A stretch of DNA of 64,000 bases from an uncultured Holophagaceae bacterium (GTDB lineage Bacteria; Acidobacteriota; Holophagae; Holophagales; Holophagaceae), in contig CAISFO010000047.1 of assembly GCA_903884655.1 (NCBI GenBank), positions 1 through 64,000 on the forward strand, read 5' to 3'. Both the position numbers and the translations under genes were made by a program. Numbering within the stretch: position 1 is the stretch's first letter; the number at the start of each line of letters is the position of its first letter. The notes beneath the pieces were generated by a model. It had not been told where the DNA came from. It worked only from the letters and a program-made list of their open reading frames with translations, and did no database searches. This document shows, in pieces, positions 9,044 through 45,037 of this stretch.

Positions 9044-10336
9044 TCAGTTCCAGACCCGCTTGCCACCCACCCAGGTGCCGAGCACCTTGCCGGGCAGGCT
9101 CCAGCCTTTGAAGGGGGTGTTGTAGGACTTGGACTGGATGAAGGCCCGGTCCACCTGCACCTTCTCGTGGGGATCGAAGAGGACGAAATCCGCGGGCGCT
9201 CCGGGCTTGAGGCTCCCGAGGCCCTGGCGGTCCAGTTGGAAGACCTGGGCGGGTCCTCCGGCCAGCAGGGCGATGGCTCTGGACAGACTGATGACCTGGC
9301 GGTTCACCAGCAGCTCCAGAGTGAGGGGCAGGGCGGTTTCCAGACCGATGACGCCGAAGGCGGCGATGGGCAGCTCCACTTCCTTGTCATCCCAGCCATG
9401 GGGCGCATGGTCCGTGGCGATGGCATCCACGGTGCCGTCCGCGAGGGCTTCCAGCACGGCCTGGATGTCGGCCTCGCTGCGCAGGGGCGGATTCATCTTG
9501 TAGTCACTGTCGAACCGCATCAGCTCCTTGTCCGACAGCGCGAAGTGGTGAGGCGTCACCTCGCAGGTGACATGGAGTCCCCGAGCCTTGGCCTCGCGCA
9601 CCAGGCGCAGGGAGCCCTTGGTGCTGAGGTGGGCCAGATGCAGGTGGCCACCGGTGTGCTCTGCCAGCACGATGTCCCGGGCCACCATGGCCTCCTCCGC
9701 CGCGGCGGGGATGCCCAGGCAGCCGAGCGAAGCGCTCACGGCTCCTTCGTGCATGTAGCCCTTGCCCGCCAGGTCCTTGTCCTCCTCATGGGCCACCACC
9801 GGCACGTCCAGCCAGCGGGTGTATTCCAGAGCCCGGCGCATGAGGGAAGAACTCGAGATGGGCAGGCCGTCATCCGAGAAGGCTATGCAGCCGGCAGCCT
9901 TGAGGGTGCCCATGTCGGACAGTTCCTCGCCCTTCATGTCGCGGCTCACGGTCCCAATGGGGAAGAAGCGGCAGAGGTCGGCCTTGGCCGCCCGGCTGAG
10001 CATCATTTCCGTGATGGCCACGCTGTCGTTCACGGGCTTGGTGTTGGCCATGGCGCAGACCGACGTGAAGCCACCGGCCACTGCCGCCCGGCTGCCGGTC
10101 TCGATGCTCTCCTTGCGAGTCTGGCCCGGCTCCCGGAAGTGCACGTGCAGATCCACGAAACCTGGTGCCAGCACGGCGCCGCCACCATCCAGGACCTCGG
10201 CCCCCGCTGCCTGGGGATGAGTGGCAGCGGCTGCACCGATTGCAAGCACCTTCCCGTCCACCACCAGCAGCGCCCCCGGCCCGTCCAGGCCCTGCACCGG
10301 ATCGACCAGACGGACATTCTTCACGAGGAGGGACAT
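9044..10336 (-). CDS. pyrC: Dihydroorotase (class I, PyrC)
   Basis: A 430-residue amidohydrolase that closes N-carbamoyl-aspartate to dihydroorotate in pyrimidine synthesis. It has the first metal motif DLHVHFREPGQTRKE near residues 58-72, the N-terminal strand LVKNVRLVDP, a HLAHLSTKGS segment, EVTPHHFALSD, and ATDHAPH, the metal Asp motif, near residue 305. Length and motifs fit class I (long) dihydroorotase. The start at 10336 has GGAG upstream. It lies downstream of guaB on the same strand, with the GxxExxY element inserted between them, so purine and pyrimidine genes are neighbours here. Confidence 0.95.
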   Translation of the reverse strand: MSLLVKNVRLVDPVQGLDGPGALLVVDGKVLAIGAAAATHPQAAGAEVLDGGGAVLAPGFVDLHVHFREPGQTRKESIETGSRAAVAGGFTSVCAMANTKPVNDSVAITEMMLSRAAKADLCRFFPIGTVSRDMKGEELSDMGTLKAAGCIAFSDDGLPISSSSLMRRALEYTRWLDVPVVAHEEDKDLAGKGYMHEGAVSASLGCLGIPAAAEEAMVARDIVLAEHTGGHLHLAHLSTKGSLRLVREAKARGLHVTCEVTPHHFALSDKELMRFDSDYKMNPPLRSEADIQAVLEALADGTVDAIATDHAPHGWDDKEVELPIAAFGVIGLETALPLTLELLVNRQVISLSRAIALLAGGPAQVFQLDRQGLGSLKPGAPADFVLFDPHEKVQVDRAFIQSKSYNTPFKGWSLPGKVLGTWVGGKRVWN

Positions 10337-10384
10337 GGGGACTCCGGAATCGGGTCTTGAGCAAGGCACCAAGGCTTAAAGATT

Positions 10385-10431
10385 AAAGAAGAACACCGAT
10401 GAACACCGATAAAAGCTGATGAACACCGAAA
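10385..10431 (+). repeat. Left arm of inverted repeat around the GxxExxY gene
   Basis: About 47 bases built from 10-base units: GAACACCGAT at 10391-10400 and 10401-10410, a variant AAAAGCTGAT at 10411-10420, and GAACACCGAA at 10421-10430, preceded by AAAGAA. Its reverse complement recurs with very few differences at 10826-10874, on the other side of the GxxExxY gene. Confidence 0.9.
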
Positions 10432-10444
10432 AATGCATAGAGGC

Positions 10445-10843
10445 CTAGCGGGAGAGGCGCTTGATCTGGGGTTTGAGGGAGCCGAAGTTGATAAGGAGAC
10501 AGGTGGGCAGGCCCATGGCCTTCAGGTAGTGGAGGCCCTGAGCCGTGTGGGCGTCTTCTAAGGCCCTGCTGGCTTTCAGTTCGATGAGCAGTCTCCCCTC
10601 GACGGCCAAGTCGGAAATGCAGCTGCCCACCACCTGATTCTGATAGGACACGGTGATCGGAACCTGCTGCTCGAAGGCCAGTCCGGCTCCCTGAAGTTCA
10701 ATGGCCAGCGCGTTCTCGTACACCTTCTCCAGGAATCCCGACCCCAGCGAGTTCGCCACCTTGAACACTAGTCCGATCACGACTTCGGTCAACGGATCAT
10801 GATCCGACTGCAGCACCTTGTCTTGATCGGTGTTCATCAGCAT
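10445..10843 (-). CDS. GxxExxY protein (PD-(D/E)XK nuclease-like)
   Basis: A 132-residue protein of the GxxExxY family. The name motif is visible as GFLEKVY near residues 36-42. The later core has an Asp (CISDLAV) followed by LLIELKAS, giving D-x(9)-ExK, as expected for a PD-(D/E)XK nuclease fold, and the C-terminus has HYLKAMGLPTCLLINFG. Its ATG (10843, or a second at 10837) lies inside the right inverted repeat, so residues MNTD are encoded by a repeat unit. There is no Shine-Dalgarno sequence at the usual distance. The biological role of the family is not established. The gene sits between guaB and pyrC, where it interrupts the block. Confidence 0.88.
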   Translation of the reverse strand: MLMNTDQDKVLQSDHDPLTEVVIGLVFKVANSLGSGFLEKVYENALAIELQGAGLAFEQQVPITVSYQNQVVGSCISDLAVEGRLLIELKASRALEDAHTAQGLHYLKAMGLPTCLLINFGSLKPQIKRLSR

Positions 10844-10874
10844 TTATCGGTGTTCATCGGTGTTCCTTCTTTTC
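10826..10874 (-). repeat. Right arm of inverted repeat around the GxxExxY gene
   Basis: On the minus strand this reads AAGAAGGAACACCGATGAAC and onward, with perfect GAACACCGAT units at 10856-10865, 10846-10855 and 10826-10835, and ATAAATGCTG between the second and third. It matches the left arm almost base for base in inverted orientation. It holds the ATG of the GxxExxY gene and ends four bases from the guaB stop codon. Confidence 0.9.
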
Positions 10875-10878
10875 TTCC

Positions 10879-12339
10879 CTACTCCATCCGGTAGTTCGGC
10901 GCTTCCTTGGTGATCATGACGTCATGGGCGTGGCTTTCCCGGAGGCCGGAGCCGCTGATCTCGACGAAGGTGGCCTTCTGCTGGAAGTCGGCGATGCTCT
11001 GGCCGCCGCTGAGGCCCATGCCCGCCCGCAACCCGCCCATGAGCTGGGTGACCAGGTCGCCCATCTTCCCCTTGTAGGGCACCTGGCCCTCGATACCCTC
11101 GGGCACCAGCTTGGTGTCGTCCTTACCTTCCTGGAAATAGCGATCCTTGCTACCCTGCTTCATGGCGCCCAGGCTGCCCATGCCGCGGTAGGCCTTGAAG
11201 GTGCGCCCGCCGTAGAAGATGGTCTCGCCCGGGGCCTCGTCCGTGCCCGCGAAGAGGCTGCCGATCATGACGGCGCTGGCTCCGGCCGCGATGGCCTTGG
11301 CCACATCGCCGCTGAACTTGATGCCGCCATCGGCAATGCAGGGCACACCCGCCTCGCGACAGGCCCGGCTGGCCTCGGCCACGGCGGTGATCTGGGGCAT
11401 GCCCGCGCCGGTGACGATGCGGGTGGTGCAGATGGAGCCAGGCCCGATGCCGATCTTCACGGCGTCCGCCCCGGCCTCGCAGAGGTCCTTCGCGCCCCTG
11501 TAGGTGGCCACGTTGCCGGCGATGAGGGAGACGGAAGGATGGGCCCGCTTCAGGGCCCGCACGGCGTCCAGCACGCCCTGGCTGTGGCCGTGGGAGCTGT
11601 CCAGGCAGAGCACATCCGCCTGGGCTTCCACCAGCGCTGCGGCGCGATCCAGCAGGTCCTTGCCCACGCCCAGGGCGGCGCCCACCCGCAGGCGGCCGAA
11701 ACTGTCCTTGCAGGCATTGGGATATTCGATGGATTTCTCGATGTCCTTGACGGTGATGAGCCCCTTGAGCTGGCCCTGGCCATCCACCACCAGCAGCTTC
11801 TCGATGCGGTGCCGCTGCAGGATGGCCCTGGCCTCCTGGAGGGTGGTGCCCACGGGCACGGTGACCAGGTTGTCCTTGGTCATGGCCTCGCGCACGGGGA
11901 TGTCCCAGCGGGTCTCGAAGCGCAGGTCGCGGTTGGTGAGGATGCCCACCAGCCGGTGGCCTTCTACCACGGGCACGCCGCTGATGCGGAACTTGGCCAT
12001 CAGGGCCTCGGCGTCGCGGATGGGGGCGTCGGGCTCGATGGTGATGGGATCGGTGATCATGCCCGACTCGCTGCGTTTCACTTTGTCCACTTCCTCCGCC
12101 TGCCGCTCGGGGCTCAGGTTTTTGTGGACGATGCCGAGGCCGCCCAGCTGGGCCAGGGCGATGGCCATGCGGCTTTCCGTCACCGTGTCCATGGCGGCTG
12201 AGATCAAGGGGATGCGCAGGCCGATGGTCTTCGTTAACTGCGTGTTCAGGTCCACTTGGTTGGGATGGAGTTCCGAAAAGCCAGGGACGAGCAGAACATC
12301 ATCAAACGTGAGGGCACGCAGCAGGGGCAAGGTCAGCAT
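10879..12339 (-). CDS. guaB: IMP dehydrogenase
   Basis: A 486-residue enzyme that oxidises IMP to XMP with NAD, the first committed step to GMP. It has the N-terminal [11 protein letters not shown], a pair of CBS domains (about residues 90-205, including [11 protein letters not shown] and [13 protein letters not shown]), and the catalytic loop [11 protein letters not shown] near residue 300 with the nucleophile Cys. [11 protein letters not shown] and the flap region follow, ending [13 protein letters not shown]. Length is normal for bacteria. The start ATG at 12339 has AGG upstream. It is on the same strand as pyrC. Confidence 0.97.
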
Positions 12340-44940: not shown

Positions 44941-44958
44941 GGAATACCTTTAAGACCT

Positions 44959-45037
44959 AACCGCAGATAGGTGCAGATAAAAGAAGGAAGAATAATGGTT
45001 GGGGTTTCATCTGCGAAATCTGTGTCATCTGCGGTTT
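44959..45037. repeat. Solitary inverted-repeat relic between TldD and TldE genes
   Basis: Left arm AACCGCAGAT-AGGTGCAGAT (44959-44978) and, on the opposite strand, right arm AAACCGCAGATGACACAGAT and further CGCAGATGAA (45037 back to about 45007). The units resemble the decamers around the GxxExxY gene (CxxxGAT core), but only 30 bases separate the arms and no gene is inside. Confidence 0.7.

Follow-up and report, generated by a model that had tools for sequence, protein, structure and literature searches.

A GxxExxY gene flanked by inverted arrays of short units in the guaB-pyrC interval of a Holophagaceae bacterium belongs to a family of putative small mobile cassettes

The interval between guaB and pyrC in a Holophagaceae genome holds a cassette of about 500 nt, in which a gene of the GxxExxY family lies between inverted arrays of the unit GAACACCGAT. 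Similar arrays frame most GxxExxY genes inspected, their presence differs between close relatives, and gene-less copies are dispersed over the genomes. Taken together, the cassettes look like mobile elements of a hitherto undescribed class that is built around a nuclease, though working like a REPIN-RAYT pair.

Results

Over 39 nt, the two arms of the cassette (10391-10429 and 10827-10865) show 97% complementarity, and a gapped alignment lengthened them to about 51 nt (10379-10429 versus 10826-10876). The near-perfect inverted repeats described around the gene in the initial annotation are thus real. Its count of three unit copies per arm holds for the right arm, which has three exact copies of GAACACCGAT; the left arm contains two exact copies, GAACACCGAa and the variant unit AAAAGCTGAT, and its third unit has to be corrected to GAACACCGAA. 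Within the window, i.e., the whole 64-kb stretch of DNA analyzed, GAACACCGAT occurs five times, always at the cassette, with 0.05 copies expected. As had been proposed, the right arm supplies the start of the gene, since the ATG and the MNTD codons fall inside it, and the location between guaB and pyrC was confirmed (Table 1). All three genes are co-directional. A target duplication was not visible at the window cassette, in line with the initial annotation. For the RNA of the cassette, a single long stem in which the termini pair was predicted (-220 kcal/mol, z -7.9); such a stem is expected from inverted repeats anyway and is hence no separate evidence. Rfam gave no match in 9900-11400. The second element of the window, which lacks a gene, has the same type of unit (flavor) as the arms of two GxxExxY genes at other loci (L042 and L046).

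Table 1. Positions of the cassette, its neighbors and a second element in the window
Feature	Positions	Strand	Remarks
Left terminal array	10379..10429	+	GAACACCGAT, GAACACCGAT, AAAAGCTGAT, GAACACCGAa; outer end A/G-rich
Right terminal array	10826..10876	-	Inverted copy of left array; contains the gene start (start codon and MNTD)
GxxExxY protein, 132 aa, predicted PD-(D/E)XK nuclease	10445..10843	-	TIGR04256, PF13366; structure pLDDT 91
Codons of putative catalytic core D78...E88xK90	10574..10612	-	Conservation in 81 sequences
guaB-pyrC intergenic space with cassette	10337..10878		Only 33-92 nt in several congeners
guaB (IMP dehydrogenase), upstream neighbor	10879..12339	-	TIGR01302, 633 bits
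pyrC (dihydroorotase), downstream neighbor	9044..10336	-	ATG at 10336 by reading
Second, gene-less element, CGCAGAT units	44958..45037		AACCGCAGATAGGTGCAGATAAA ... TTTCATCTGCGAAATCTGTGTCATCTGCGGTT; between two long same-strand ORFs; found by pattern, then read

The assignment of the gene product to the PD-(D/E)XK-like proteins was upheld by profile searches, in which it scored 123.8 bits with the GxxExxY profile TIGR04256 (cut-off 35) and 126.3 bits with PF13366 (cut-off 22); PDDEXK_3 was the sole Pfam match of the framed gene. Across 81 sequences, E39, Y42, D78, and K90 are invariant, G36 and E88 are conserved in at least 90%, and Q102 and Y106 are nearly invariant, both the G-x-x-E-x-x-Y motif and the D-ExK-QxxxY residues being kept. 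A sequence search found no relative of solved structure. An AlphaFold2 model based on 81 homologs (pLDDT 91, pTM 0.82) gave Cas4 SSO0001 (4ic1, E 4.9e-4) as top Foldseek match, followed by lambda exonuclease (3slp, 9.4e-4), and the VIA Z value was 10.6 for Cas4 and 8.4 for the next match. The model predicts a Cas4/lambda-exonuclease-like fold; nuclease activity has not been demonstrated. Between the genes of the window's genome (G000) and of its congener G036, dS was 1.17 and dN 0.13, and the dN/dS of about 0.11 shows that the protein is under purifying selection. In the same pair, 55 of 57 nt of the non-coding left arm are identical. Since the gene has a dS of 1.17, the arms outlast neutral decay. 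Membership in a known defense system was rejected, as the window protein had merely weak PADLOC matches (best E 0.03), and it had no PHROGs matches. In the open-access literature GxxExxY is mentioned in two papers, only incidentally and with neither function nor arrays given.

For the framing test, the 350 nt left of a gene were aligned with the reverse complement of the 350 nt to its right (SW score). Shifted placements within the same loci served as controls, some of whose matches are neighboring elements themselves. The test was applied to 80 named loci, which come from many phyla and include archaea and cyanobacteria. Here, 67 of 77 testable genes were framed with a score ≥ 30 compared to 21 of 1021 shifted controls, and 61 genes compared to seven controls reached a score ≥ 34. 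The GFLE[KR]VYE subclade is overrepresented among the named loci, the profile used for the named-genome scan having been too diverse. When all loci were pooled, inverted short-unit arrays were found around 127 of 144 distinct GxxExxY genes. In 54 of the 127 the upstream arm holds an in-frame ATG, so that a gene start formed by a dispersed repeat, one of the forms suggested for the window gene, recurs in the family. The unit types comprise GAACACCGAT, CACGGAG, CACCAAG, CACGAAG, CGCAGAT, CAGGATTAA, and others, often with a core C[A/G]C-NN-A[G/T] and a period of 8-10.

The similarity of the arms correlates with that of the proteins. For 58 framed Geothrix genes, rho was 0.41 (permutation maximum 0.084), and for pairs below 60% identity it was still 0.24 (permutation maximum 0.125); for pairs below 50% identity the correlation fades. 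The unit differs between GxxExxY subclades and tracks them. Part of this co-segregation is due to the linkage of arms and gene, which could by itself explain it; taken alone, the test does not distinguish recognition from linkage.

Insertion was supported by the comparison of guaB-pyrC junctions in the genus. Of 27 junctions read, four carry the cassette (G000, G036, G022, G029) and 23 lack the gene; they have short spacers, other inverted arrays (CACCAAG, CTGTCAG, GTCTGGAG), or a framed SRA-HNH gene. According to the initial annotation, insertion would have failed as a model if all relatives carried the gene here and the repeats were not found elsewhere; neither is the case. Its suggestion of a small mobile or homing cassette therefore stands with respect to insertion, but strict homing, i.e., cleavage of the empty site, was not shown. 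The site is repeatedly occupied by differing families. Arrays of the GTCTGGAG type and, in other species, of the CTGTCAG type were seen there at L066, L068, L073, L083, and L088.

For six GxxExxY cassettes, clean empty sites were found in Geothrix strains with about 85-96% local identity (L274/L326, L280/L332, L286/L334, L288/L336, L289/L338, and L290/L340). Here, inserts of 427-565 nt stand in place of 0-51 nt of intergenic DNA. Because the cassette is absent in two relatives in most cases, these differences suggest gain. The six recent gains are of differing flavors, and duplication of a whole cassette within a genome was not seen among them. None of the six empty sites showed a visible target duplication, and a DDE element with target duplication was rejected on these grounds. 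The non-homologous stretch is often longer than the arms, which leaves the exact element ends undetermined. For several gene-less elements of the window's genome, the orthologous site in congeners is nearly empty, and at other sites a congener has another flavor; even strains that are ~95% identical hold different flavors at one site (L272/L322).

The search of the window's own genome called for in the initial annotation revealed that the repeat is dispersed: GAACACCGATGAACACCGAT with up to three mismatches gave 44 matches, the reversed control none. Most of these are gene-less inverted pairs in intergenic DNA with a spacing of tens to about 200 nt, a typical pair being AACCACCGATGAACACCGATGAACACCGATAAAAGC...GCTTTTATCGGTG..., and their interiors are unrelated. 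Interpretation of the interiors as gene remnants or a conserved MITE core was discarded, similarity being limited to self-hits and trivial matches. A degenerate triple-unit pattern was present in 43 of 47 congeners, with no match of the reversed control in any genome. Genomes with more GxxExxY genes also contain more arrays (rho 0.55, p 4e-4, 37 genomes). Five genomes have no GxxExxY gene; four of them contain 0-1 arrays and one contains nine (G012, in which no gene was found and whose genome is 86% complete).

In most genomes examined, the gene-less elements share the flavor of a resident gene. Those of G019 are CAC[AG]GAT, matching its gene L353, and nearly all of those in G022 are CACCGAT, matching L427. 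Exceptions are G016 and G003, where CACCGAT elements are present and no CACCGAT arms were seen among the genes read. In four species (G000, G022, G021, G069), an orthologous GxxExxY gene at one syntenic site is unframed; close to the 3′ side of this gene lies a CACCGAT pair with 3+3 units.

Some further repeats were observed. At G003:C43:3094-3190 and G022:C26:6098-6174, CACCGAT arrays have grown to about 8-10 tandem units, an expansion that suggests slippage of unit number. A GC-rich, REP-like palindromic element CATGGGGGGCGCCAGGGCCGCGAGCCCCC occurs near some GxxExxY genes (L133, L287, L360, L372). At L277, several array elements of differing flavors are clustered; G025, a near relative, lacks the CGCGAAT one.

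Framing is not confined to GxxExxY genes. S23-type four-helix-bundle genes (TIGR02436) were expected to go with 7-base arrays, and this was borne out when tested. In Geothrix, short-unit arrays, mostly 7-base, are present on both sides of all 12 testable TIGR02436 genes, ten of which score ≥ 30 and two 28. Outside the genus, in cyanobacteria, Geobacter relatives, and planctomycetes, 21 of 26 four-helix-bundle genes score ≥ 30, compared to 4 of 104 controls. The framed four-helix-bundle loci of Geothrix and these groups are L174-L191 and L382-L411. We found no description of a four-helix bundle combined with inverted repeats in the open-access literature. As these proteins are not nucleases and are framed likewise, a nuclease is unnecessary for the architecture. 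An SRA-HNH endonuclease gene is framed by CACCAAG arrays at guaB-pyrC in three congeners (G008, G032, G012; L077, L412-L414). It was not accepted as a general third cargo, as it is unframed at L415. An unbiased search of the analyzed loci for further framed ORFs yielded mainly GxxExxY and four-helix-bundle genes, which the choice of the DNA had led us to expect.

Discussion

We lean, with modest confidence, toward the explanation that the nuclease recognizes its own arrays and drives their spread; the presence of a RAYT or another transposase was not examined, and there are no binding or cleavage data. The window unit would then be a single cassette out of a large family of small mobile elements. 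Its nuclease would bind arrays of its own flavor, one site per unit, and cut DNA at or near them, and the cassette, together with gene-less pairs of the same flavor in trans, would be copied or moved to intergenic DNA without target duplication. Some nuclease genes may become resident, with vertical inheritance and one array pair on their 3′ side, and may feed the gene-less pairs throughout the genome, as RAYT genes do for REPINs. Recognition of the arrays with DNA binding, the cutting, and the chemistry of movement are inferences.

Alternatively, the arrays could be the mobile entity and be moved by other machinery, such as a RAYT or IS200-type HUH enzyme, a transposase, a reverse transcriptase, or slippage and template switching, with the gene as a passenger that e.g., protects or processes the element. 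We regard this as unlikely, although a real chance remains for it, as three unrelated families (GxxExxY, four-helix bundle, and HNH) share the architecture, differing flavors or genes occupy one intergenic site among congeners, even in the ~95% identical strains of L272 and L322, and the interiors of gene-less elements have nothing in common. In contrast, the unit type tracks the GxxExxY subclade and array number tracks gene number, and the nuclease residues are under strong constraint, all of which fits less well with a pure passenger.

Quite improbable, in our judgment, is a role of the arms at the RNA level, in which the transcript stem would be removed by RNase III or another enzyme and the cassette would spread by homologous recombination of flanking genes rather than by transposition. 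The predicted long stem and the co-direction of the cassette with both guaB and pyrC would agree with it, as would the finding that 23S rRNA intervening sequences (IVS) carry S23 ORFs within stem-forming inverted repeats (PMC4990558), members of the S23 family being framed here as well. However, a stem follows from any inverted repeats, and allele exchange does not account for the gene-less copies, which lie by the dozen at non-homologous sites of one genome. Hardly any weight can be given to ordinary intergenic repeats, such as terminators or chance arrays, lying near the gene by accident: the arrays are intergenic and capable of forming hairpins, but the shifted-window and reversed-pattern (0) controls, the 0.05 copies expected, and the clean empty sites contradict this explanation.

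A known system with close resemblance to the cassettes is REPIN-RAYT, which consists of intergenic inverted doublets with a variable spacer, in distinct flavors per genome and with a cognate enzyme gene adjacent; the RAYT gene is passed on vertically as one copy, and it is the gene-less doublets that multiply (PMC3116915, PMC8266576). The cassette family likewise has intergenic inverted doublets of distinct flavors with a variable spacer beside a cognate, flavor-matched gene. Here, too, the resident gene is a vertically inherited single copy next to multiplying gene-less doublets, and the unframed resident gene with its CACCGAT pair corresponds to the arrangement of a RAYT beside a REPIN (PMC3116915). 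It differs in that the enzyme is a predicted PD-(D/E)XK protein and not an HUH tyrosine (Y1) transposase, that the arms are tandem direct units of 8-10 nt whereas a REP is an imperfect palindrome, and that many GxxExxY genes lie between arrays themselves and were inserted recently. DDE insertion sequences and MITEs are distinguished by the lack of target duplication at the six empty sites, of a conserved interior, and of a transposase match of the framed gene. The 23S rRNA IVS, e.g., of Coxiella, have an S23 ORF bounded by stem-forming inverted repeats (PMC4990558) and resemble the cassette as a single-ORF element of ~430 nt between inverted repeats whose termini pair into a stem; moreover, intergenic genes of the S23/TIGR02436 family also lie between inverted arrays of 7-base units. 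The window cassette, however, lies between guaB and pyrC, outside rRNA, its ORF encodes a putative nuclease, its arms are tandem units, and gene-less copies are dispersed. The cassettes are set apart from REPIN-RAYT, IS, MITE, and IVS because the defining features of these were tested and not met. Cas4, RecB, and lambda exonuclease are the closest solved folds and share the D-ExK-QxxxY residues, but GxxExxY proteins are much shorter and array-framed, and the four-cysteine iron-sulfur cluster of Cas4 is missing, as the window protein has only two cysteines. None of six array sequences was found in the open-access literature; a prior description elsewhere is possible.

The STRRs of cyanobacteria are heptanucleotide intergenic direct repeats. 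Comparable TAACTGA heptanucleotide direct repeats occur in Beggiatoaceae, for which a repeat-binding protein was proposed as the mobile entity (PMC4679880). Both share with the arrays described here short tandem units, an intergenic location, a patchy distribution over distant phyla, and suspected mobility. In contrast to our inverted pairs, which frame genes or lie beside them, no gene is tied to these repeats and the sets are mostly direct. STRR-like heptanucleotide repeats may derive from four-helix-bundle genes. That the STRRs are the 7-base arrays of these genes is a suggestion without a direct test.

Whether bacteria and archaea in general harbor single-gene mobile cassettes with inverted 7-10-base arrays read by the encoded protein, in at least two unrelated families that evolved or took over this architecture, GxxExxY nucleases with 8-10-base units and four-helix-bundle proteins with 7-base units, and that both feed gene-less pairs and so account for many unexplained short intergenic repeats, can be answered only tentatively; we consider it possible, just short of probable. 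For the GxxExxY family, which is widespread and was named by NCBI only after a motif, the cassettes provide a first testable role, and they tie scattered, unexplained short intergenic repeats to defined genes. They also offer a natural series in which every putative nuclease is matched to a repeat unit of its own, and recognition rules could be derived from this series. The parallel between the framed S23-type genes and the IVS provides a possible explanation for the origin of rRNA intervening sequences.
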